Source: Daphnia pulex
Taxonomy: Eukaryota > Arthropoda > Branchiopoda > Diplostraca > Daphniidae
NCBI RefSeq assembly: GCF_021134715.1
Contig: NC_060026.1
Span: forward strand, 6,563,001-6,627,000
Direction: 5' to 3'
Length of the DNA stretch: 64,000 nucleotides
This document shows, in pieces, positions 48,251 through 63,983 of the stretch (position 1 is its first letter; every line of letters starts with the position of its first letter). Below the pieces are notes generated by a model. It was not told where the DNA came from. It did no database searches and worked only from the letters and a program-made list of their open reading frames with translations. The position numbers were made by a program, and so were the translations under genes.

Positions 48251-48316
48251 TTATGGGACCTTATAACACAGACAGTGGGAACCATTATATCTACAACCAT
48301 GACCAAGGGTAACATG
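48251..48316 (-). repeat. Right arm of the inverted repeat flanking the THAP gene
   Basis: Reverse complement of 46634-46699 with few mismatches. Its outer edge, GTAACATG (48309-48316), is also the 8-bp target duplicate of the composite element that starts at 48317. Confidence 0.85.
48309..48316. repeat. 8-bp target-site duplicate, left
   Basis: GTAACATG directly abuts the left end (GGGATAGCGACACTAG) of the composite element. The same 8 bp abut the right end at 63697-63704. Confidence 0.7.
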
Positions 48317-48798
48317 GGGATAGCGACACTAGAACGTATTACCACTAGAACTTTAAGAATCCGACACTAGAACGCGACACTAGAACTACAACTTTTTTAA
48401 CGCGTCACTAGAACGCGGCACTAGAACTTCAAGATTTTAGGGCCGACACTAGAACTTATCAACCCCGACACTAGAACGCGACGCTAGAACGGCGACACTA
48501 GAACGGCAACAGGGCCGACACTAGAACGGCGACACTAGAACGGCGACACTAGAACGGCAGCAGGGCCGACACTAGAACGGCGACATTAGAACGCGACGCC
48601 AGAACGGCGACACTAGAACGGCAACAGGGCCGACACTAGAACGGCGACACTAGAACGGCAGCCGGGCCGACACTAGAACGGCAGTCGGGCCGACACTAGA
48701 ACGGCGACACTAGAACGGCGACGCTAGAACGGCAGTAATTTCAGGGCCGACACTAGAACGGCGATAATATTAACGGCGTCACTAGAAAAACGTCACCC
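48317..48798 (+). repeat. Left terminal inverted repeat of unit 1 (14-bp minisatellite)
   Basis: About 28 spaced copies of GACACTAGAAC with linkers GGC, GGCAACAGGGCC and variants. The commonest period is 14 bp (GGCGACACTAGAAC). It ends inward at AAAAACGTCACCC. Variants such as GACATTAGAACG and GACGCCAGAACG recur in the other arms and mark them as common descent. Confidence 0.9.
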
Positions 48799-49145
48799 TA
48801 AAAGAGGATGTTGCGTGTTGCGATCGGTTGTTAATATAAACAGAGGGGAATTTACAAAAAGAATCCAAGATCGGATGAAATAAAAACAAAAAAAATCATC
48901 TTTCTTGAATGTGGATTAAGTAACATCAACAGTTTTTTTTTTACTCTTTTGATTGTATTTAGGCCTACATCATTACACATCATCGTTTTTGTTGGGCAAA
49001 GTAACAGGATTAATAAAATAGAATGAAAAAGAAGTTTCGATTGTGCAGAATTGTTTCTCAGTAAATGGTCTTCTGTAGAATTGCTTTATAGCATATTTGA
49101 GAAAATATCCGAGATACTTCGGCGCCCATTAAACTCGATTCCGGA
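48799..49145. other. Unassigned interior sequence of unit 1
   Basis: AT-rich. It opens a frame (from 49051) that runs into the SLC35F6 fragment but does not resemble the missing N-terminus of that family. It therefore seems to be unrelated DNA joined at about 49140. Confidence 0.5.
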
Positions 49146-50059
49146 AGCAATCATTATTTTCACTGGACTTTTGTCCACAGCTTTCCTAGGGAGGCTTTTA
49201 AAAGCGCGTGAATGGCTTGGAATGTTAACCGTCATCATGGGTCTGAGTGTGGTGGGCGCTTCCGATTTCATCTTTGGCTCTGGTAGCAGCAACAACTCAA
49301 TCAACAGCATTATCACTGGTGATCTGCTGATTGTTATGGCGCAAATCGTTACAGCCAGCCAAATGGTATGGGAAGAGAAATTTGTTACCAAACACAATGT
49401 GCCAGCGTTGCAGGCCGTCGGCTGGGATTTTTGGCTTTGTAACCCTGTCCCTCTTGCTTATTTCTATGTATTTCCTTCGTGTGGGACCTCCATTTAGCTC
49501 TAATCCTCGTATGGTCCTTGAAGATGCTCTGGATGGTTTCATCCAAATGCGTGATAACCCAATGATTATTCTCGCCATGTCAGGTATTTATTTTCTATTG
49601 TTTTTCAGCCTTCAATCCCTCATTGTCATTTCTTTCTAGGTACTGTGATAAGTATCGCATTATTTAATTTCGCTGGTGTCAGCGTCACAAAGGAATTGTC
49701 AGCGACCACTCGTATGGTTCTGGATTCGGTACGAACGCTTGTTATTTGGAGCGTAAGTCTATCTCTTCAATGGCAACAACTTTATTGGCCTCAGGTATGA
49801 ATCATATATAAATTAGTTTTACCGATTAAATACTAATCAAAACTTTGTAAATAAAAATCTAATTAATGTGACGCTTTTATTACAGATTATTGGATTTGCT
49901 TTGCTTGTGATGGGCATGGGCTTGTACAATAACATTATCAACGCTTCGGTTTGCAAGTGCCGCCGCGGATCGGACTCGGAGCCACTTTTAGGGGTTAATG
50001 AAGACCAATCCATCAATGAGGAAGAAGGAAGACGCCGAAGACGTAGTGTTATCCACTAG
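49146..50059 (+). pseudogene. SLC35F6 fragment, 5'-truncated and frameshifted (unit 1)
   Basis: Exons to 49583, 49640-49794 and 49886-50059 are spliced GT-AG and in phase. They encode AIIIFTGLLSTAFLGRLLKA, VGASDFIFG, IGPPFSS-type RVGPPFSSNPRMVLEDALDG, NFAGVSVTKELSATTRMVLD and a C-tail. This is the drug/metabolite-transporter fold of SLC35F6 (ANT2-binding protein, lysosomal/mitochondrial membrane). The first roughly 100 residues, including the first helices, are absent. In the first exon a small deletion after QAVGW shifts the frame (the sense resumes as IFGFVTLSLLLISMYF). The TAG at 50057 ends the frame after an Arg-rich tail. Introns are retained, so capture was at the DNA level, not by retroposition. 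Confidence 0.85.
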
Positions 50060-50630
50060 TCTCGCGATATTTTTTTCTCTTCGTCAAAGTTTCTCTATAT
50101 GCTTTTCTCAATTCATAGCGGTAACTCCTCATATTTTTTTCCTTTTTTATCCCCAAACTTCGGAAAATTTGCAATCGTTTCGTTACTAGTGCAGTCTCGG
50201 TCAGCAAAATTAATGCGTATTTTAAAAAAATTAATTGGGACGAGAATTATTTCCTGTTGGTTTCATATCGTGGAACTACCAGATTCTCTTTCATCGTCTG
50301 TCTTTCATTAAATGGCGGGTCTTCCTTGATGAAAATTAACAATAGATTATCGTGTGTAGGCGATTGATGTTTATCTTGTTGATTATCTCCTTATAAACAA
50401 TGAAAAAATTAGGAACTACCACGTCGGGTTTATTGTGGAAAAGACTAGACAATACTAATTATACGAATGCACAGATTTTACAACCATCCTAACTGTTGTT
50501 ACTTTTTGTCCAACGAACACGTCCGATAATCCTTTATAGTTTAGGAAAAGAAGTAGACCGAGTCGAGAACAAGGCGCAAATCAAACATGCCGCGTCTAGG
50601 CACTTCACTTATAATTTGATTCAATCTGTG
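50060..50630. other. 3' flanks between SLC35F6 and POLRMT fragments (unit 1)
   Basis: Non-coding by inspection. The convergent 3' ends of the two captured fragments face each other here. Confidence 0.5.
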
Positions 50631-52146
50631 TCATGCAAGTCCTTTGGGCGTGTCATCGTCAACAGCATCGGCACCACTTAAAAAAAAAGATAAATTTAAC
50701 AACTGAAGTGTGAGCAATATAGCAAATCTATTATTAAATACCTCGCTCGGACGGCAAACTGTGAGACCAAAAACTTTGAAAGATCTTCCAAAATAGGCTG
50801 AGAGTGGAGAGATACGAATTGTTGTCGACAGATCTGAAATAAATTTTAAAAAAAATACAGGGGAAAGATGAATAAACCAGAAATCTGGAATTCGAGGTGT
50901 TTTTAAATATCACCTTATTCATTTCTGCCACAGTGCAAGGGTGAGTCCAGAAACAATCGTGAATGGACGCAAAAGTGATGCCTTTTCGTTGGCAATAGAG
51001 CGCCGTTAGCATCATGTGGCTCGAGTCCGAGGAGTGAATAAAGTTTGGTGGGAATGCGTTGCGTTGTTTAATCGCATTCGGTCGACTGTCAACATAAACT
51101 ATTAGAATTTCTGGGAATGATAAAAAAAAATACCCAATTTACATTGCTTCGTAAGGATTATTGTTGTACGACTGCACAACTGGTAACCCAATCGGAGTGA
51201 TCCATTCGACACTTTCTCCGGCGACGGTTGAAATCAATTTAGCACTTTCAGTAAACCAGTCTTGAATATCTTTAGCCGACGTAAACCTTGTAAACTTTGA
51301 AATGTTTTGTCAGCTAAATAAACAGATTCAACTTGAACTTGTTCAGGTGTTAGATTCGGTAGTTCTGTTTAGGCAGAAGCCAATGAAGTTAGTAATTTAC
51401 CCAAAAATATCAGAATCGTGTACTATGTACACCACAAAAATTATGTACCTTTAAGCTGTTTGGCAATTTGTAATCGGGCACCGTATTACCGCGTGACACC
51501 GTATACTGTCGTCATTACTGTTTGCTTGATGATCTTTCGATTGATCAGTCCAGCAAGAAGTTGAGAAATTTCAACATTATTCGCAGCATCTTTGGAACGT
51601 TCCCTTTCAACCTATATTTAAAAAACAAAACAAAAAATTAATTCTCTGTAAAAAGCAAACAATCGAAAGTATTGTGTACTAGATTGGCCACGTTGCTGTA
51701 AACGTCTTGTGGTCTATCAGTCGGTGTTAAATTGACGCTTTCGGCTCCAACTGTATCTCGCCCTAAAGCTGCATAATGTTGTAATCCATTACACGATCCG
51801 TCTTGATGGATAGGTAAGTGACAAACATAAGCTTCCGGTCCTTCTGGACATCTTAATGCATTTGCGACTTCCATACAAGCTGCTAAGGTTTGCCACGGTT
51901 CATCTGAATTGACCCACCATTGTCTTCCCTGTATTGTTGTTAAAGTTTCAACAGTTAAAAAAAAATAAATGATAATAAATCTTGGCAAGTCTAACCGTTA
52001 AAGGATTATCAGCTGAGTCGAGAATTTCCGGCATTATTTTCTCGGCATAGGCATGACGTTCACTAATCGGCTCCCTTTTCTTCGTACCAGTCAAATATAT
52101 CACATGCAGTTTTAACCAGTTGAAACCGTCAGCACCCAAAGGTTTA
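50631..52146 (-). pseudogene. Mitochondrial RNA polymerase C-terminal half (unit 1)
   Basis: Minus-strand exons encode the catalytic half of a single-subunit (T7-like) RNA polymerase: LGADGFNWLKLHVIYLTGTK, ERHAYAEKIMPEILDSADNP, and HQDGSCNGLQHYAALGRD (motif A, catalytic Asp). KQTVMTTVYGVTR (finger/motif B region) and FASIHDCFWTHP (motif C, catalytic Asp) follow, ending at a TGA at 50631. A TAA interrupts the frame directly after VYGVTR, where an extra codon sits before YGARLQIAKQL. The N-terminal domain and PPR part are absent. Introns are kept. At its upstream end it is fused to the M13 peptidase piece without an intron. The intact gene product transcribes mtDNA. Confidence 0.88.
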
Positions 52147-54217
52147 CGGGTTTCATTGTCCATCCACTCGAGTTCGTCGATTATTTCCGAGAAAACGCTG
52201 CGGATATTTTTGACCATCTCGTTCATCGATTGGCGGGCCGCCTCTTCAAAATATTCGCGGACGTACATGGCGCCAACGGCATTGCCAAAACTGTAAACGA
52301 AAAATAAAAAGAGGACACGAGTTTAGTCCGGTTTAGTCAACAAGAAATAAACAAACAGAGAGTAGCCAACAGACGCCGAGGAAACGCGCCACATCTAATA
52401 ATTGACCAAAGTCCTTGAGAAAATCAAATCAAAATGTTGTGTTGTTAATTAATTGTTAAAAACGCTGGATGATGATGGAATTGTACCCTCTTAGGAGTTT
52501 TGGCCAGCAAATCAACCAGCTTGGGGAAATAGTCGGGCACATCGACAACGACGCGCTCGTTTTCCGTCAGGACGTGATGCGGGGCCAGGATCGTGTTCAT
52601 GTAAGACCAGCCAAGGGATTTCGGGTAATTTGAGGCTCAATTCTTAAATAGTCATGGGATTGTAAAGTTTGTTGGCATCACGGCGCTCCACCCTCGGCAA
52701 ATTGATCTGTTTTTATTTTTGGTCGGGAAGGGTATAGCAATCAAAATTAATGATCCCGCCATTTTATTTTACTACGTACACAGCTTAGAGGGAGAAAAGG
52801 GAGAAAAGAGGCTTTGAAATAGAAGAATTACATTGGCATGGTTGATTTCAAATTCCAGCGCTTCCGTCTGTTGCTTGGTTGCGGTATCCTTATCCTTATC
52901 GCTCTCAGAAGTTGGCTAAACCGACTTGATAATCGAGGTAAGCTTTGACGTCCTTGTCTCCGAGACCTTTGATCAGATATTCCCGGTTCAGTCCCAGAGT
53001 GGCTTGATCCAACTGTCCCAACGAAATAATAAGCGAATCATCAACCATTCAATATTTCTGACGAGGTGAAATGATGGCAATAGGGGCGAAATTATTTACG
53101 TCAATAATACGCGAAGTCAAGTTCTTCAGGTCGGTCGTGACGGAAAAGTCGACAAAGTAGTCGATCGAGTAGCCGGCCAGACGGAACTTGTAAATCATGT
53201 CAGTCCAAACAAAAGTGCTGTCGTCCCAGCTGTCGCCAACGACGACCGGCCAGCCGCCAAACTGGTCAAGGACCTCCTTGAGCGGCGCCAGGCCCACCTC
53301 CTCCGCCCGGGTCTTATTGTTCAAACACGACTGGAAGAGCTGCGATTCAAAACGGAATTATTTATCCATCCAGGCCGGCACATCAAAGAAGAAAGAGATG
53401 GTTTTAAATACGTACTTTCTTGATCAGCTTGAACGGCTCAGCAGCGTCCGTTTCTTTGGTGGGCCTCTCGATGAGCGCGACCGCAGCTGCTCCGTCACTT
53501 CGTCGCTAATCAAACTGAAAGTCGTCACGCTCGACTGGTCGTCCGGAATCACGTTCCTCGTTTCGAATCCGCCGCAAGCGAACGAGTAGAAATCCTCGCA
53601 AGGATTCACCGTCTTGTTTATATTTTTCAGGATCTCGGCCGCTATCGAGAATTCACATTACTTGATTTTCACAAGGAAAGTAGATGGGACAAGTTAATTT
53701 GTACCTGCCAGGACGCAGCCGGAAGTGTTGCAAACGTCGCCGTTGGCGCTTTTGGCCGAAGGATCGGCGTCGGGTTTGGTGGCCTCAAAGATAAAGAAAA
53801 GCTGAAATTAAAAATAATAGGAAACCTAGATTATTTTATTAATTTCTTTTATTCAGAAGAACTACAACAAGAAAATTACAACAAGAGCCTTGTCCAAATC
53901 GAGAACTTTGTGACTGCTGACGGTAAAGGCTGCAGCAGAGGGCGAGACCATGGCAAGAGTTTCACTATCGAACACTATTTCAAGATGGCAATTGGGATAT
54001 TGGGGTTTATAAACAGATCAATCTCATCAAAAAAATAATAATTTAAAAACCAAAAAATTGAGAATTGGAAAAATAGCCGAACCTTTTGAGGGGTCGTTTT
54101 GCTGGCCTCGGTAGATGAAAGCGGCCATGGCGATAGTCAATCCGACGGCCACAAAGACGACGACGGTGGCGCAAAGGGATAGGCGTCACTCTAGACGAGT
54201 CCTGCGCTCCGCAGAAA
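52147..54217 (-). pseudogene. Neprilysin-like M13 peptidase, N-terminal half (unit 1)
   Basis: Minus-strand pieces follow family order: a signal anchor (LCATVVVFVAVGLTIAMAAF, 54217-54083), DVCNTSGCVLA, NPCEDFYSFACGG, FGGWPVVVGDSWDDSTFVW, LDQATLGLNREYLIKGLGDK, LPRVERRDANKLYNPMT, TENERVVVDVPDYFPKLV and GAMYVREYFEEAARQSMNEM. They match neprilysin (type II membrane metallopeptidase). The HExxH catalytic half is missing; the sequence passes directly into POLRMT after DNETRK. Breaks: a TGA just before the anchor (after RRTRLE), a frameshift after SDEVTEQL, and a TAG in the ANYxMWR block. Not a functional peptidase. Confidence 0.85.
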
Positions 54218-55483
54218 CAGTCAACTGGGAACCCAATTGGATAAATTTTGCTTTTAATGAAAAGCCATGAGGAACTGCATATCAGGCATTGGGTGATAGC
54301 TCGACGATGTAACAGGATCGATGCGATAGAATTTGCGATCGCAAGTTCCATTTCTGCCATATTTCTTACGTTCTTTAGGCTGTAGGGCGTAAGCGCGACA
54401 CACACACAATTCTTTTCTCCTTTCCAACACCACCACCAAACACACACTCAAATAGTTCGATGGCTTTTTCGGACAGAATGATACAGTCACAAAATTGTTC
54501 AATCACTAGTTGACATCTTGACGCAGTCGAGGTGATCACTTATTCAGGGGGCAAATCAACCATTGTGTGTGAATAGTGTTGGAATATAAACAGATGGCCG
54601 TAAGACCAAGTCGACGTTTCATCCAGACTCGGTATGAGATTGTACTGAGCTTGATCATAAGTGGGTTTCTTTTTTTTAGGCATATCACGTTAGAGAAACG
54701 TATTTTCGTTTTTTGCCGTTATATTTCATGGAATCCTCGGAATACATTCCAAGAACTATGTGATGTTTATGCGACGCATGTGCCTTTGTACAAGGCTTTG
54801 AAGACAGTATACTACAATCCATTTATACTTTCGTTATGCTATGAAAGGACATTCGACGAACGAGATGGCACTTGTTGTCTGACGATCGAGGAAACATTAT
54901 TCTCCAATGATTCGACCCGCTTCACCTGAGTGACCTGAAAAACCTTTTCAGAAGTAACCCTTACGTAACCTTTTAAGTCGGCCGTTCCGCCAATCCAAAT
55001 TTAGGGACTCCATCCTGCGCCTTGCACAATGCCGCCGTCCGACCGACACAGTAGAACCAGCCACTTTGGCCGACTCGGGTTGCCCTTAATCCCATCGACA
55101 ACAATCCTCACTGGATAAATGTCGTGCTGAAGCTCACGGCTTGGCAGTTCGTCCAACTGTCCAAGTTGCAGCCGGACAATTCCGATTTCTCACGAAGCCG
55201 GCAAAGTGTCAATTCTCCTCTGCTAATTGTTGCTCAATTGTGGTGTTAAGTCATGACAGCTGCCCAAGAATTCGTATTAGTTAGTTGGCTGGAATTGGTT
55301 CAATAAAAACAGTTTCTATTCCCATTTATATATACTTGCTAGACTGTTGTTTGGTTTCTTTTGTATATGTATGCACCTAGAATTAGATTTAAATAAGGTG
55401 TTTTGCTGGAATCTAAGGGCGTTGTTTTACTCCCGTACTCTATAACATGCCCTATCTAACATGCCCTATTTTTCTTACGGGTG
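54218..55483. other. Unassigned interior sequence of unit 1
   Basis: Holds a 117-codon plus-strand frame (54576-54929, MLEYKQMAVRPSRRF) and a GC-richer stretch (54960-55210). Neither matches a family I recognise. It could be the 5' flank of the captured peptidase gene or another captured locus. Confidence 0.45.
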
Positions 55484-56001
55484 ACGTTTTTCTAGTGACG
55501 CCGTTAATATTATCGCCGTTCTAGTGTCGGCCCTGAAATTACTGCCGTTCTAGCGTCGCCGTTCTAGTGTCGCCGTTCTAGTGTCGGCCCGACTGCCGTT
55601 CTAGTGTCGCCGTTCTGGCGTCGCGTTCTAATGTCGCCGTTCTAGTGTCGGCCCTGCTGCCGTTCTAGTGTCGCCGTTCTAGTGTCGGCCCGACTGCCGT
55701 TCTAGTGTCGCCGTTCTGGCGTCGCGTTCTAATGTCGCCGTTCTAGTGTCGGCCCTGCTGCCGTTCTAGTGTCGCCGTTCTAGTGTCGCCGTTCTAGTGT
55801 CGGCCCTGTTGCCGTTCTAGTGTCGCCGTTCTAGCGTCGCGTTCTAGTGTCGGGGTTGATAAGTTCTAGTGTCGGCCCTAAAATCTTGAAGTTCTAGTGC
55901 CGCGTTCTAGTGACGCGTTAAAAAAGTTGTAGTTCTAGTGTCGCGTTCTAGTGTCGGATTCTTAAAGTTCTAGTGGTAATACGTTCTAGTGTCTACATGC
56001 C
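55484..56001 (-). repeat. Right terminal inverted repeat of unit 1
   Basis: Reverse-complement orientation of the minisatellite (CCGTTCTAGTGTCG units). It is somewhat longer than the left arm because a block of about 100 bp around CGTTCTGGCGTCGCGTTCTA occurs twice. Confidence 0.9.
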
Positions 56002-56011
56002 ATGAAATGAA
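56002..56011. other. 10-bp linker between the two units
   Basis: ATGAAATGAA separates the right end of unit 1 from the left end of unit 2. It differs from the outer 8-bp duplicate. Confidence 0.7.
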
Positions 56012-56493
56012 GGGATAGCGACACTAGAACGTATTACCACTAGAACTTTAAGAATCCGACACTAGAACGCGACACTAGAACTACAACTTTTTTAACGCGT
56101 CACTAGAACGCGGCACTAGAACTTCAAGATTTTAGGGCCGACACTAGAACTTATCAACCCCGACACTAGAACGCGACGCTAGAACGGCGACACTAGAACG
56201 GCAACAGGGCCGACACTAGAACGGCGACACTAGAACGGCGACACTAGAACGGCAGCAGGGCCGACACTAGAACGGCGACATTAGAACGCGACGCCAGAAC
56301 GGCGACACTAGAACGGCAACAGGGCCGACACTAGAACGGCGACACTAGAACGGCAGCCGGGCCGACACTAGAACGGCAGTCGGGCCGACACTAGAACGGC
56401 GACACTAGAACGGCGACGCTAGAACGGCAGTAATTTCAGGGCCGACACTAGAACGGCGATAATATTAACGGCGTCACTAGAAAAACGTCACCC
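56012..56493 (+). repeat. Left terminal inverted repeat of unit 2
   Basis: Same minisatellite array as 48317-48798. Together with the preceding right arm of unit 1 it forms a head-to-head palindrome of about 1 kb (55484-56493). Confidence 0.9.
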
Positions 56494-56840
56494 TAAAAGA
56501 GGATGTTGCGTGTTGCGATCGGTTGTTAATATAAACAGAGGGGAATTTACAAAAAGAATCCAAGATCGGATGAAATAAAAACAAAAAAAATCATCTTTCT
56601 TGAATGTGGATTAAGTAACATCAACAGTTTTTTTTTTACTCTTTTGATTGTATTTAGGCCTACATCATTACACATCATCGTTTTTGTTGGGCAAAGTAAC
56701 AGGATTAATAAAATAGAATGAAAAAGAAGTTTCGATTGTGCAGAATTGTTTCTCAGTAAATGGTCTTCTGTAGAATTGCTTTATAGCATATTTGAGAAAA
56801 TATCCGAGATACTTCGGCGCCCATTAAACTCGATTCCGGA

Positions 56841-57754
56841 AGCAATCATTATTTTCACTGGACTTTTGTCCACAGCTTTCCTAGGGAGGCTTTTAAAAGC
56901 GCGTGAATGGCTTGGAATGTTAACCGTCATCATGGGTCTGAGTGTGGTGGGCGCTTCCGATTTCATCTTTGGCTCTGGTAGCAGCAACAACTCAATCAAC
57001 AGCATTATCACTGGTGATCTGCTGATTGTTATGGCGCAAATCGTTACAGCCAGCCAAATGGTATGGGAAGAGAAATTTGTTACCAAACACAATGTGCCAG
57101 CGTTGCAGGCCGTCGGCTGGGATTTTTGGCTTTGTAACCCTGTCCCTCTTGCTTATTTCTATGTATTTCCTTCGTGTGGGACCTCCATTTAGCTCTAATC
57201 CTCGTATGGTCCTTGAAGATGCTCTGGATGGTTTCATCCAAATGCGTGATAACCCAATGATTATTCTCGCCATGTCAGGTATTTATTTTCTATTGTTTTT
57301 CAGCCTTCAATCCCTCATTGTCATTTCTTTCTAGGTACTGTGATAAGTATCGCATTATTTAATTTCGCTGGTGTCAGCGTCACAAAGGAATTGTCAGCGA
57401 CCACTCGTATGGTTCTGGATTCGGTACGAACGCTTGTTATTTGGAGCGTAAGTCTATCTCTTCAATGGCAACAACTTTATTGGCCTCAGGTATGAATCAT
57501 ATATAAATTAGTTTTACCGATTAAATACTAATCAAAACTTTGTAAATAAAAATCTAATTAATGTGACGCTTTTATTACAGATTATTGGATTTGCTTTGCT
57601 TGTGATGGGCATGGGCTTGTACAATAACATTATCAACGCTTCGGTTTGCAAGTGCCGCCGCGGATCGGACTCGGAGCCACTTTTAGGGGTTAATGAAGAC
57701 CAATCCATCAATGAGGAAGAAGGAAGACGCCGAAGACGTAGTGTTATCCACTAG
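56841..57754 (+). pseudogene. SLC35F6 fragment (unit 2)
   Basis: Same truncation, introns and frameshift as 49146-50059. Confidence 0.85.
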
Positions 57755-58325
57755 TCTCGCGATATTTTTTTCTCTTCGTCAAAGTTTCTCTATATGCTTT
57801 TCTCAATTCATAGCGGTAACTCCTCATATTTTTTTCCTTTTTTATCCCCAAACTTCGGAAAATTTGCAATCGTTTCGTTACTAGTGCAGTCTCGGTCAGC
57901 AAAATTAATGCGTATTTTAAAAAAATTAATTGGGACGAGAATTATTTCCTGTTGGTTTCATATCGTGGAACTACCAGATTCTCTTTCATCGTCTGTCTTT
58001 CATTAAATGGCGGGTCTTCCTTGATGAAAATTAACAATAGATTATCGTGTGTAGGCGATTGATGTTTATCTTGTTGATTATCTCCTTATAAACAATGAAA
58101 AAATTAGGAACTACCACGTCGGGTTTATTGTGGAAAAGACTAGACAATACTAATTATACGAATGCACAGATTTTACAACCATCCTAACTGTTGTTACTTT
58201 TTGTCCAACGAACACGTCCGATAATCCTTTATAGTTTAGGAAAAGAAGTAGACCGAGTCGAGAACAAGGCGCAAATCAAACATGCCGCGTCTAGGCACTT
58301 CACTTATAATTTGATTCAATCTGTG

Positions 58326-59841
58326 TCATGCAAGTCCTTTGGGCGTGTCATCGTCAACAGCATCGGCACCACTTAAAAAAAAAGATAAATTTAACAACTG
58401 AAGTGTGAGCAATATAGCAAATCTATTATTAAATACCTCGCTCGGACGGCAAACTGTGAGACCAAAAACTTTGAAAGATCTTCCAAAATAGGCTGAGAGT
58501 GGAGAGATACGAATTGTTGTCGACAGATCTGAAATAAATTTTAAAAAAAATACAGGGGAAAGATGAATAAACCAGAAATCTGGAATTCGAGGTGTTTTTA
58601 AATATCACCTTATTCATTTCTGCCACAGTGCAAGGGTGAGTCCAGAAACAATCGTGAATGGACGCAAAAGTGATGCCTTTTCGTTGGCAATAGAGCGCCG
58701 TTAGCATCATGTGGCTCGAGTCCGAGGAGTGAATAAAGTTTGGTGGGAATGCGTTGCGTTGTTTAATCGCATTCGGTCGACTGTCAACATAAACTATTAG
58801 AATTTCTGGGAATGATAAAAAAAAATACCCAATTTACATTGCTTCGTAAGGATTATTGTTGTACGACTGCACAACTGGTAACCCAATCGGAGTGATCCAT
58901 TCGACACTTTCTCCGGCGACGGTTGAAATCAATTTAGCACTTTCAGTAAACCAGTCTTGAATATCTTTAGCCGACGTAAACCTTGTAAACTTTGAAATGT
59001 TTTGTCAGCTAAATAAACAGATTCAACTTGAACTTGTTCAGGTGTTAGATTCGGTAGTTCTGTTTAGGCAGAAGCCAATGAAGTTAGTAATTTACCCAAA
59101 AATATCAGAATCGTGTACTATGTACACCACAAAAATTATGTACCTTTAAGCTGTTTGGCAATTTGTAATCGGGCACCGTATTACCGCGTGACACCGTATA
59201 CTGTCGTCATTACTGTTTGCTTGATGATCTTTCGATTGATCAGTCCAGCAAGAAGTTGAGAAATTTCAACATTATTCGCAGCATCTTTGGAACGTTCCCT
59301 TTCAACCTATATTTAAAAAACAAAACAAAAAATTAATTCTCTGTAAAAAGCAAACAATCGAAAGTATTGTGTACTAGATTGGCCACGTTGCTGTAAACGT
59401 CTTGTGGTCTATCAGTCGGTGTTAAATTGACGCTTTCGGCTCCAACTGTATCTCGCCCTAAAGCTGCATAATGTTGTAATCCATTACACGATCCGTCTTG
59501 ATGGATAGGTAAGTGACAAACATAAGCTTCCGGTCCTTCTGGACATCTTAATGCATTTGCGACTTCCATACAAGCTGCTAAGGTTTGCCACGGTTCATCT
59601 GAATTGACCCACCATTGTCTTCCCTGTATTGTTGTTAAAGTTTCAACAGTTAAAAAAAAATAAATGATAATAAATCTTGGCAAGTCTAACCGTTAAAGGA
59701 TTATCAGCTGAGTCGAGAATTTCCGGCATTATTTTCTCGGCATAGGCATGACGTTCACTAATCGGCTCCCTTTTCTTCGTACCAGTCAAATATATCACAT
59801 GCAGTTTTAACCAGTTGAAACCGTCAGCACCCAAAGGTTTA
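58326..59841 (-). pseudogene. Mitochondrial RNA polymerase C-terminal half (unit 2)
   Basis: Same content as 50631-52146, including the TAA after VYGVTR and motifs A and C. Confidence 0.88.
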
Positions 59842-61912
59842 CGGGTTTCATTGTCCATCCACTCGAGTTCGTCGATTATTTCCGAGAAAACGCTGCGGAT
59901 ATTTTTGACCATCTCGTTCATCGATTGGCGGGCCGCCTCTTCAAAATATTCGCGGACGTACATGGCGCCAACGGCATTGCCAAAACTGTAAACGAAAAAT
60001 AAAAAGAGGACACGAGTTTAGTCCGGTTTAGTCAACAAGAAATAAACAAACAGAGAGTAGCCAACAGACGCCGAGGAAACGCGCCACATCTAATAATTGA
60101 CCAAAGTCCTTGAGAAAATCAAATCAAAATGTTGTGTTGTTAATTAATTGTTAAAAACGCTGGATGATGATGGAATTGTACCCTCTTAGGAGTTTTGGCC
60201 AGCAAATCAACCAGCTTGGGGAAATAGTCGGGCACATCGACAACGACGCGCTCGTTTTCCGTCAGGACGTGATGCGGGGCCAGGATCGTGTTCATGTAAG
60301 ACCAGCCAAGGGATTTCGGGTAATTTGAGGCTCAATTCTTAAATAGTCATGGGATTGTAAAGTTTGTTGGCATCACGGCGCTCCACCCTCGGCAAATTGA
60401 TCTGTTTTTATTTTTGGTCGGGAAGGGTATAGCAATCAAAATTAATGATCCCGCCATTTTATTTTACTACGTACACAGCTTAGAGGGAGAAAAGGGAGAA
60501 AAGAGGCTTTGAAATAGAAGAATTACATTGGCATGCTTGATTTCAAATTCCAGCGCTTCCGTCTGTTGCTTGGTTGCGGTATCCTTATCCTTATCGCTCT
60601 CAGAAGTTGGCTAAACCGACTTGATAATCGAGGTAAGCTTTGACGTCCTTGTCTCCGAGACCTTTGATCAGATATTCCCGGTTCAGTCCCAGAGTGGCTT
60701 GATCCAACTGTCCCAACGAAATAATAAGCGAATCATCAACCATTCAATATTTCTGACGAGGTGAAATGATGGCAATAGGGGCGAAATTATTTACGTCAAT
60801 AATACGCGAAGTCAAGTTCTTCAGGTCGGTCGTGACGGAAAAGTCGACAAAGTAGTCGATCGAGTAGCCGGCCAGACGGAACTTGTAAATCATGTCAGTC
60901 CAAACAAAAGTGCTGTCGTCCCAGCTGTCGCCAACGACGACCGGCCAGCCGCCAAACTGGTCAAGGACCTCCTTGAGCGGCGCCAGGCCCACCTCCTCCG
61001 CCCGGGTCTTATTGTTCAAACACGACTGGAAGAGCTGCGATTCAAAACGGAATTATTTATCCATCCAGGCCGGCACATCAAAGAAGAAAGAGATGGTTTT
61101 AAATACGTACTTTCTTGATCAGCTTGAACGGCTCAGCAGCGTCCGTTTCTTTGGTGGGCCTCTCGATGAGCGCGACCGCAGCTGCTCCGTCACTTCGTCG
61201 CTAATCAAACTGAAAGTCGTCACGCTCGACTGGTCGTCCGGAATCACGTTCCTCGTTTCGAATCCGCCGCAAGCGAACGAGTAGAAATCCTCGCAAGGAT
61301 TCACCGTCTTGTTTATATTTTTCAGGATCTCGGCCGCTATCGAGAATTCACATTACTTGATTTTCACAAGGAAAGTAGATGGGACAAGTTAATTTGTACC
61401 TGCCAGGACGCAGCCGGAAGTGTTGCAAACGTCGCCGTTGGCGCTTTTGGCCGAAGGATCGGCGTCGGGTTTGGTGGCCTCAAAGATAAAGAAAAGCTGA
61501 AATTAAAAATAATAGGAAACCTAGATTATTTTATTAATTTCTTTTATTCAGAAGAACTACAACAAGAAAATTACAACAAGAGCCTTGTCCAAATCGAGAA
61601 CTTTGTGACTGCTGACGGTAAAGGCTGCAGCAGAGGGCGAGACCATGGCAAGAGTTTCACTATCGAACACTATTTCAAGATGGCAATTGGGATATTGGGG
61701 TTTATAAACAGATCAATCTCATCAAAAAAATAATAATTTAAAAACCAAAAAATTGAGAATTGGAAAAATAGCCGAACCTTTTGAGGGGTCGTTTTGCTGG
61801 CCTCGGTAGATGAAAGCGGCCATGGCGATAGTCAATCCGACGGCCACAAAGACGACGACGGTGGCGCAAAGGGATAGGCGTCACTCTAGACGAGTCCTGC
61901 GCTCCGCAGAAA
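59842..61912 (-). pseudogene. Neprilysin-like M13 peptidase, N-terminal half (unit 2)
   Basis: Same content and breaks as 52147-54217. The one base difference noticed between the units (60536) lies in it. Confidence 0.85.
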
Positions 61913-63178
61913 CAGTCAACTGGGAACCCAATTGGATAAATTTTGCTTTTAATGAAAAGCCATGAGGAACTGCATATCAGGCATTGGGTGATAGCTCGAC
62001 GATGTAACAGGATCGATGCGATAGAATTTGCGATCGCAAGTTCCATTTCTGCCATATTTCTTACGTTCTTTAGGCTGTAGGGCGTAAGCGCGACACACAC
62101 ACAATTCTTTTCTCCTTTCCAACACCACCACCAAACACACACTCAAATAGTTCGATGGCTTTTTCGGACAGAATGATACAGTCACAAAATTGTTCAATCA
62201 CTAGTTGACATCTTGACGCAGTCGAGGTGATCACTTATTCAGGGGGCAAATCAACCATTGTGTGTGAATAGTGTTGGAATATAAACAGATGGCCGTAAGA
62301 CCAAGTCGACGTTTCATCCAGACTCGGTATGAGATTGTACTGAGCTTGATCATAAGTGGGTTTCTTTTTTTTAGGCATATCACGTTAGAGAAACGTATTT
62401 TCGTTTTTTGCCGTTATATTTCATGGAATCCTCGGAATACATTCCAAGAACTATGTGATGTTTATGCGACGCATGTGCCTTTGTACAAGGCTTTGAAGAC
62501 AGTATACTACAATCCATTTATACTTTCGTTATGCTATGAAAGGACATTCGACGAACGAGATGGCACTTGTTGTCTGACGATCGAGGAAACATTATTCTCC
62601 AATGATTCGACCCGCTTCACCTGAGTGACCTGAAAAACCTTTTCAGAAGTAACCCTTACGTAACCTTTTAAGTCGGCCGTTCCGCCAATCCAAATTTAGG
62701 GACTCCATCCTGCGCCTTGCACAATGCCGCCGTCCGACCGACACAGTAGAACCAGCCACTTTGGCCGACTCGGGTTGCCCTTAATCCCATCGACAACAAT
62801 CCTCACTGGATAAATGTCGTGCTGAAGCTCACGGCTTGGCAGTTCGTCCAACTGTCCAAGTTGCAGCCGGACAATTCCGATTTCTCACGAAGCCGGCAAA
62901 GTGTCAATTCTCCTCTGCTAATTGTTGCTCAATTGTGGTGTTAAGTCATGACAGCTGCCCAAGAATTCGTATTAGTTAGTTGGCTGGAATTGGTTCAATA
63001 AAAACAGTTTCTATTCCCATTTATATATACTTGCTAGACTGTTGTTTGGTTTCTTTTGTATATGTATGCACCTAGAATTAGATTTAAATAAGGTGTTTTG
63101 CTGGAATCTAAGGGCGTTGTTTTACTCCCGTACTCTATAACATGCCCTATCTAACATGCCCTATTTTTCTTACGGGTG
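61913..63178. other. Unassigned interior sequence of unit 2
   Basis: Copy of 54218-55483, with the same unrecognised frames. Confidence 0.45.
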
Positions 63179-63696
63179 ACGTTTTTCTAGTGACGCCGTT
63201 AATATTATCGCCGTTCTAGTGTCGGCCCTGAAATTACTGCCGTTCTAGCGTCGCCGTTCTAGTGTCGCCGTTCTAGTGTCGGCCCGACTGCCGTTCTAGT
63301 GTCGCCGTTCTGGCGTCGCGTTCTAATGTCGCCGTTCTAGTGTCGGCCCTGCTGCCGTTCTAGTGTCGCCGTTCTAGTGTCGGCCCGACTGCCGTTCTAG
63401 TGTCGCCGTTCTGGCGTCGCGTTCTAATGTCGCCGTTCTAGTGTCGGCCCTGCTGCCGTTCTAGTGTCGCCGTTCTAGTGTCGCCGTTCTAGTGTCGGCC
63501 CTGTTGCCGTTCTAGTGTCGCCGTTCTAGCGTCGCGTTCTAGTGTCGGGGTTGATAAGTTCTAGTGTCGGCCCTAAAATCTTGAAGTTCTAGTGCCGCGT
63601 TCTAGTGACGCGTTAAAAAAGTTGTAGTTCTAGTGTCGCGTTCTAGTGTCGGATTCTTAAAGTTCTAGTGGTAATACGTTCTAGTGTCTACATGCC
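63179..63696 (-). repeat. Right terminal inverted repeat of unit 2
   Basis: Copy of 55484-56001, ending CTAGTGTCTACATGCC at the composite's right edge. Confidence 0.9.
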
Positions 63697-63704
63697 GTAA
63701 CATG
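63697..63704. repeat. 8-bp target-site duplicate, right
   Basis: GTAACATG directly follows the right end of unit 2 and equals 48309-48316. Confidence 0.7.
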
Positions 63705-63712
63705 GGACATGA

Positions 63713-63983
63713 ATGGGGCTCTTCGGGATCTGTTTTATTTAGCCGATTTATCTGGCAACGCAGCATGGTTCGAGACTTTTTTGAGGGAAGAACGGGGAGA
63801 AGAGGGAGAATGGGACGAATGGGGGAGAAGAGGAAACGTGGGTCCCCTTTTTTTTCGTACGCCCTCCTCCCTCCCACTCGCCCCATTCTCCCTCTTCTCC
63901 CCGTTCTTCCCTCAAAAAAGTCTCGAACCATGCTGCGTTGCCAGATAAATCGGCTAAATAAAACAGATCCCGAAGAGCCCCAT
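63713..63983. repeat. Hairpin with about 110-bp arms
   Basis: ATGGGGCTCTTCGGGATCTG (from 63714) is mirrored at 63964-63983. The arms pair almost perfectly to about 63823/63873, with a G/A-rich against C/T-rich inner part and a loop of about 50 bp. The overlapping ORFs on the two strands are mirror images of the arms. Confidence 0.9.

Follow-up and report, generated by a model that had tools for sequence, protein, structure and literature searches.

A gene-capturing DNA transposon family, probably of the Mutator/Foldback kind, in the genome of Daphnia pulex

What is the near-perfect tandem repeat that occupies positions 48309 to 63704 of a 64,000-nucleotide stretch of Daphnia pulex DNA (contig NC_060026.1, positions 6,563,001 to 6,627,000; hereafter the window), and how did pieces of unrelated host genes come to lie within it? 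The original prediction, made from the letters of the window, described a foldback-like transposable element carrying host DNA, arranged as two 7.7-kb units with inverted repeats of about 0.5 kb built from a 14-bp minisatellite, and with an 8-bp repeat exactly at the outer ends of the pair. This layout proved accurate: the two units, of 7,685 bp each, lie in tandem in one orientation and differ on alignment by a single mismatch (52841 G / 60536 C), while GTAACATG is flush with both outer ends and is lacking at the inner junction, beside a 10-bp spacer. The inverted arms of each unit (358 nt at 99% plus 152 nt at 93%; 91% over 515 aligned columns, 41 of them gap columns) are repeats of the 14-bp unit CGACACTAGAACGG, and the outermost 8-mers are unequal, GGCATAGC (in the focal variant GGGATAGC) on one side and GGCATGTA on the other. 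Together with the copies found elsewhere in the genome, these features lead us to conclude, with a probability of roughly 0.7, that the units belong to a non-autonomous family of DNA transposons of the Mutator/Foldback kind, which resembles the Pack-MULEs (host-gene-carrying Mutator-like elements, MULEs) and is moved in trans.

The transposon reading was to be given up if the ends occurred only at this site and no duplications flanked other copies, and a genome search (133 Mb, 13 contigs, here abbreviated C and a number) found neither to be the case. A 19-bp end pattern returned 35 exact matches and five at one mismatch (control, 0 and 1), a 27-bp pattern with up to three mismatches returned 13 (control, 0) and a 35-bp degenerate pattern returned 33 (control, 0). 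The tip set considered below (n = 36) consists of the 35 exact matches and C5:3309351, which has one mismatch, and leaves out the other four one-mismatch matches. Both ends are present at 11 loci, namely the focal dimer, C8:1788709-1796462 and C9:8866856-8874675, which carry the focal cargo and each have their own duplication, six loci of a group designated family B (on C1, C5, C6, C8, C10 and C12), C8:7152205-7157970, and C11:5734470-5738157, where a 1-bp deletion adjoins the right tip. All 11 pair GGCATAGC or GGGATAGC at one end with GGCATGTA (once GGCATATA) at the opposite end, so that the predicted ends define a genome-wide family, with the correction that the focal left tip is a variant. 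The target duplication is 8 bp long at seven of these loci (GTAACATG at the outer ends of the focal pair, GAAAGTAA, TACGCGAG, AATGGAGG, CTAAAGAA, GTTTCCAA and CTTGGAAG) and 9 bp long at one (TTTTTCCAG), and all eight duplications differ from one another. Eight of the 11 loci thus display the near-fixed duplication length at independent insertions by which cut-and-paste movement is recognised. That the units should instead be minisatellite-bounded segmental duplications, or an artefact of assembly, is hardly credible: minisatellite arms and near-perfect tandem repeats are typical trouble spots, but exact tips are shared among independent sites that have different target duplications, one cargo recurs at three sites on three contigs, and a 10-bp spacer separates the two units.

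Some tips stand in duplicated surroundings. Two of the 36, C8:7160074 and C8:7162177, sit within 2.1-kb tandem copies of one element's flank; in this region (C8:7158400-7162300) the repeated flank is that of the guanylyl-cyclase element described below, and each copy holds approximately the first 25 tip bases. The lone right tips at C8:297761 and C8:463510 have their last flank bases in common and, further in, match over 1,985 columns at 97%, which suggests a common origin by duplication.

The arms and interiors of the other copies bear the marks of foldback elements and of recent movement. In the 10 units measured, the arms span approximately 450-640 aligned columns and are 91-100% alike, being long inverted arms of short tandem repeats; the alignment starts at base 9 in seven units and, running through mismatches, at base 1 in three. 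The C8:1788709 and C9:8866856 copies, which have different flanks and different target duplications, agree at 99.0% of 7,821 columns (10 mismatches, the remainder gaps), and identity is 99.2% between the family-B copies on C5 and C12, as compared with approximately 94-97% between the focal units and the C8 and C9 copies. Relative to the tips, the interiors of the C8 and C9 copies are inverted when compared with the focal units, and in family B two interiors (C6, C8) are inverted with respect to the other four (C12, C5, C1, C10). The arms of the C10 copy are 99.8% identical to each other, as against 97% to the arms of the C1 copy. Flipped interiors and arms that are closest within one element are expected of recombination or conversion between long inverted arms.

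We then consider what the focal units carry (Table 1). Three captured genes had been proposed; POLRMT and an M13 peptidase stand on Pfam evidence, the transporter can be assigned to the SLC35F family (barely over the cut-off, 21.4 vs 21 bits), and the count of three falls short, because the interior is a patchwork of six stretches that match host loci on three contigs (C2, C11 and C12). An interior copied from host loci that are still present is what characterises Pack-MULEs and their terminal-inverted-repeat counterparts, Pack-TIRs. Segment 2 aligns to genomic DNA as a single piece across the POLRMT exons, whose domain pieces fall in three frames, as with exons split by introns, and the POLRMT identity is also supported by matches to mitochondrial RNA polymerase structures. 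INTS2 was identified at the C11 locus on protein evidence, and the C11 match of segment 6 lies approximately 9 kb from the INTS2 match of segment 1. At the C12 locus matching segment 5 there is a long open frame, which looks teneurin-like. Five of the six segments also aligned to the C9 copy, in a comparison made without the 80% segment 5. Compared with the C8 and C9 copies, the focal segment 3 is missing approximately 308 bp of M13 source sequence, and it has 101 bp (53786-53886) that those copies lack. In the alignments a single base (49151) is common to segments 1 and 2, one filler base (52146) stands between segments 2 and 3, and segments 5 and 6 abut at 55179; parts of the stretches that lie outside the assigned host segments (48799-48929, 54211-54397 and 54640-54975) match other members or an 81-bp stretch of C5 (84%).

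Table 1. Features of the focal tandem pair, in window coordinates.
Feature	Position	Strand	Match or remark
Left target duplication GTAACATG, 8 bp	48309..48316	none	Matches right outer copy
Unit 1, 7,685 bp	48317..56001	+	
Left tip GGGATAGC	48317..48324	+	GGCATAGC in C8, C9 copies of focal subfamily
Left inverted-repeat arm, 14-bp minisatellite	48325..48798	+	
Host segment 1, INTS2 3' end region	48930..49151		Match C11:804014-804224, 81% (0.885 substitutions only)
Host segment 2, contiguous 3-kb piece, SLC35F-family exons (+) and POLRMT exons (-)	49151..52145		Source C2:540993-543969, 95.7%
POLRMT (mitochondrial RNA polymerase) exons	50908..51937	-	Pfam RNA_pol, three frames
Open frame across segment 2/3 junction, M13-peptidase joined to POLRMT exon sequence in frame	51948..52268	-	
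Host segment 3, M13 peptidase piece	52147..54210	-	Source C11:431539-433812, 87-92%; Pfam Peptidase_M13_N
Host segment 4, 242 bp	54398..54639		Match C12:2208634-2208876, 95.5%
Host segment 5, 204 bp	54976..55179		Match C12:8664770-8664965, 80%
Host segment 6, 277 bp	55179..55455		Match C11:812725-813014, 83% (0.94 substitutions only)
Right inverted-repeat arm	55479..55993	+	
Right tip TACATGCC (inward reading GGCATGTA)	55994..56001	+	
Spacer ATGAAATGAA, 10 bp, between units	56002..56011		No target duplication
Unit 2, 7,685 bp	56012..63696	+	Parts as in unit 1, at +7695
Right target duplication GTAACATG, 8 bp	63697..63704	none	

The open frame across the junction of segments 2 and 3 may owe its fusion of M13-peptidase and POLRMT exon sequence to luck, which has a sizeable chance given that orientation and frame are free; the C8 and C9 copies have the identical junction, and in them the frame is broken by a frameshift upstream, within the M13 part. 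When substitutions only are counted, identity to the host loci is 0.885 for segment 1, approximately 0.94 for segment 6, 0.92-0.99 by window for the M13 piece and 0.95-0.99 for the C2 segment. These values hint at an age gradient with older edges, to which we give little weight because coding and non-coding sequence are mixed and because segment 4, near the right side, stands at 95.5%.

Two small features adjoin these parts. At the junction of segment 6 with the right arm, TAACATGCCCTATC, whose inward reading resembles the right tip GGCATGTA, is doubled (window 55443-55469) and it is single at the matching C11 locus. A 271-bp near-perfect palindrome (window 63713-63983; arms of 121 nt, 96%, 29 nt apart) starts 8 bp past the right target duplication and is possibly a separate short inverted-repeat element.

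Capture extends to other members of the family, as the original prediction had proposed to check, with INTS2, guanylyl cyclase and probably cryptochrome as further cargo. The C8:7152205-7157970 element carries kinase-like and guanylyl-cyclase domains (Pfam). Its guanylyl-cyclase piece is 87% identical both to its source, C2:11404801-11407492, and to another copy of that source at C2:11436469; elsewhere in the element, one piece is 78% identical to C7:11835618. Two INTS2 pieces lie in the C5:3309351 element (938 columns at 88.5% and 584 at 90%), the far end of which was looked for and not found. After the tip at C7:7897019 come a cryptochrome/photolyase piece, then a nested piece of Copia-like sequence and lastly, at C7:7903328-7903505, a stretch that matches in inverted orientation the sequence adjoining the focal left arm; since the far tip of this copy was not found, the cryptochrome/photolyase piece is only a probable part of a family member. 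An SUV3 helicase stretch in the 6.2-kb family-B copy C8:10859125-10865280 was considered as a captured gene and rejected, as it sits in a nested repeat of another family: this SUV3-exon repeat (C8:10860967-10863201) is a separate 2.2-kb element with many partial genome copies, a 3.5-kb query returning 82 matches in a genome DNA search, element parts included.

Which enzyme moves the family? The original prediction considered an 8-bp duplication more typical of hAT and P-type elements and did not decide on a class; the length is indeed compatible with both, and Mutator/Foldback elements such as Tm1 and Tetris fit at least as well. Duplications in the 8-10-bp range of the Mutator superfamily were found at eight of the 11 two-ended loci, and the arms built of a minisatellite, the unequal tips and the duplications of 8-9 bp agree with, for example, Tm1 of root-knot nematodes (Meloidogyne), for which the available part of the report describes unequal 7-bp tips, mostly 14-bp tandem units and 8-10-bp duplications (PMC3169594). 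The likeness covers short tips that are unequal and lie beyond the inverted repeat, mostly 14-bp units in the arms, duplications without a consensus and the existence of many non-autonomous members; the differences are that the tip and unit sequences are not the same, that a Mutator-like transposase is encoded by one Tm1 member, none having been found here, and that the patchwork capture of several host genes is not reported for Tm1 in the same part of that source (PMC3169594). Tetris of Drosophila virilis, placed in Mutator on arm and duplication grounds, is likewise a foldback element with tandem repeats in its arms, 8-10-bp duplications and no apparent coding capacity, but its repeat units are approximately 220 bp and no gene capture is reported in the text available (PMC4079207).

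A family of the same gene-capturing kind moved instead by a hAT- or P-type (Galileo-like) transposase is, by comparison, fairly improbable. Its tips, GGCATAGC and GGCATGTA, are presumably unlike those of hAT or P elements, and unequal tips with a 14-bp unit form the Tm1 pattern. The duplication is 8 bp at seven of the eight loci that have one, which suits such an enzyme, but at the eighth it is 9 bp, and no hAT or P transposase turned up in the parts scanned, where no search was aimed at either. Galileo of Drosophila shows that long, internally repetitive arms can accompany a P-superfamily transposase, and it has chimeric copies without matching duplications, although its duplications are 7 bp long, as far as the accessible text describes (PMC3573991). 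KDZ/Zisupton elements also make 8-bp duplications, according to the part of the source available (PMC12730594); no link to them was found, and no search aimed at KDZ was made.

In the parts scanned, the absence of a transposase claimed in the original prediction was borne out, and the autonomous relative that it proposed to look for was sought in vain. No transposase domain exceeded the cut-off in the members scanned, for which open frames were inspected by eye, in eight two-ended copies among others, and in part with Pfam. The Pfam scans covered the focal unit, the C8:7152205 element, the 6.2-kb C8 copy in part, C7:3810729, the C11 INTS2 locus, C8:463510, one strand of C8:11348615 and the C6 copy (leaving out two of the three minus frames of its left half); the interiors of lone-ended copies were inspected by eye, in part. 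A below-cut-off HTH_Tnp_4 match (23.5 vs 27 bits), approximately 3 kb inward of the C8:463510 tip, we take to be a Harbinger-like gene; Harbinger duplications are shorter. Among the candidates for an autonomous relative, C11:803600-813400 is the INTS2 gene locus, with no match on the plus strand, the lone tip C8:11348615 has host-like open frames next to it, C5:6154092 and C2:13219855 have the look of relics, and a genome search with divergent ends yielded nothing leading to a transposase. The genome does hold MULE transposase domains (55 matches, 48 above cut-off), which makes a source in trans possible without proving it. One of them, at C8:5078485, was rejected as a relative, as it is enclosed by 60-bp inverted repeats of its own and belongs to another family; its surroundings (C8:5076300-5081000) include an open frame of 429 aa and short tandem repeats nearby.

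Several results weigh against a Mutator/Foldback family with captured genes. Because no member has a recognised transposase in the parts scanned, the enzyme class is assigned from architecture only. Every MULE match is more than 20 kb from the nearest tip, the closest being approximately 21 kb away at C7:3519415, and at 10 MULE loci, inspected to 1.5 kb on each side in eight cases and to approximately 2 kb in two, the ends were matched only weakly and in part, as might happen by chance. The commonest duplication here is 8 bp, as opposed to 9 bp in Tm1. Three of the 11 two-ended loci (the C12 copy of family B, C8:7152205 and C11) have no duplication, which may reflect loss by recombination between copies. 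As for the cargo, the SUV3 stretch, being a multicopy repeat of its own, was dropped from the captures, and the closest match of segment 1 is not the INTS2 gene itself but a broken copy of it at C10:7399762-7400040 (88% over 48882-49151). This broken INTS2 3' end copy has no family tips in the 1 kb examined (C10:7399400-7400400).

If the Mutator/Foldback assignment is correct, a MULE-class transposase made elsewhere would bind the repeated 14-bp units, cut at the tips and insert the element at a cut staggered by 8-9 bp. Repair of breaks or of stalled forks in the element might switch to unrelated host templates, whereby host segments would be copied in, and recombination between the two arms would flip the interior. 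The tandem pair may have formed through faulty repair or over-replication in place, or through movement of a dimer formed beforehand. The original prediction favoured the last course, that the pair moved as one; we regard arrival as a single macrotransposon, with unit 1 supplying the left end and unit 2 the right, as possible but somewhat less than an even bet. The presence of GTAACATG at the outer ends only, with no duplication at the inner junction, is what such an arrival would leave; however, one unit that inserted alone and was then duplicated on the spot would leave identical outer duplications, so that nothing separates the two, and the other two-ended loci are single units in 10 of 10 cases. 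A tandem duplication at one locus is also described for Ssk-FB4 of Drosophila melanogaster, which uses a foldback element read as MULE-like in the portion of the survey available (PMC8277862).

Does the family choose its sites? The word TAGATGGC, which to us resembles a CTCF site, occurs within 50 bp of the left tip in five of 17 left flanks (L025, L026, L029, L030 and L031), always in one orientation and 22-39 bp before the tip, and three more left flanks (L032, L033 and L034) have near variants, as judged by eye. All of these flanks are of family B or of the C8:7152205/C11 type; in the focal subfamily the word is in no case within 50 bp, the focal site having CAGATGGCA at -137. Among 14 right flanks the exact word is never found within 50 bp, and L050 has a variant, in a count that left out the inner dimer junction, repeated flanks and the C11 right flank. 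Genome counts of TAGATGGC are 3,231 + 2,970, as compared with 1,020 + 977 for its reverse, which gives an expectation of approximately 0.001 per flank and P = 7.5e-12 for five of 17, a value that is too good because the word was picked after the flanks were seen, with a large margin nonetheless. At C8:10859125-10865280 the word lies outside the target duplication and is thus target sequence, not element sequence. The fuller proposal, of a foldback Mutator lineage in an animal that repeatedly acquires host DNA, has joined M13 peptidase and POLRMT exons in frame and comprises two subfamilies inserting beside CTCF-like sites in fixed orientation, is tentative, and as a whole we consider it rather unlikely.

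Gene shuffling by Mutator-like elements is mainly known from plants and seldom documented in animals. Plant Pack-MULEs hold host gene fragments inside Mutator-like ends and are amplified by transposition, as are the fragments here, and minisatellite arms are not typical of them. A survey of animal Pack-TIRs lists, in the part available, 370 of them, four (1.4%, as printed) multicopy, and identified no Pack-MULE in its animal reference genomes (PMC8277862). Like those Pack-TIRs, the family described here has host genes copied into an inverted-repeat element that became multicopy by transposition with distinct duplications; unlike those in the available text, it includes one element with six segments from three contigs, and several captures within one family (PMC8277862). 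No crustacean family of this kind was found among the open-licence papers listed in literature searches, a result that says little about its absence. Because the family is small and recently active, with several captures, surviving source loci and near-identical copies in an animal, capture junctions become readable and models of template switching testable, and a preference for insertion next to a CTCF-like word, should it be real, would make it a natural transposon with a chromatin-architecture target.

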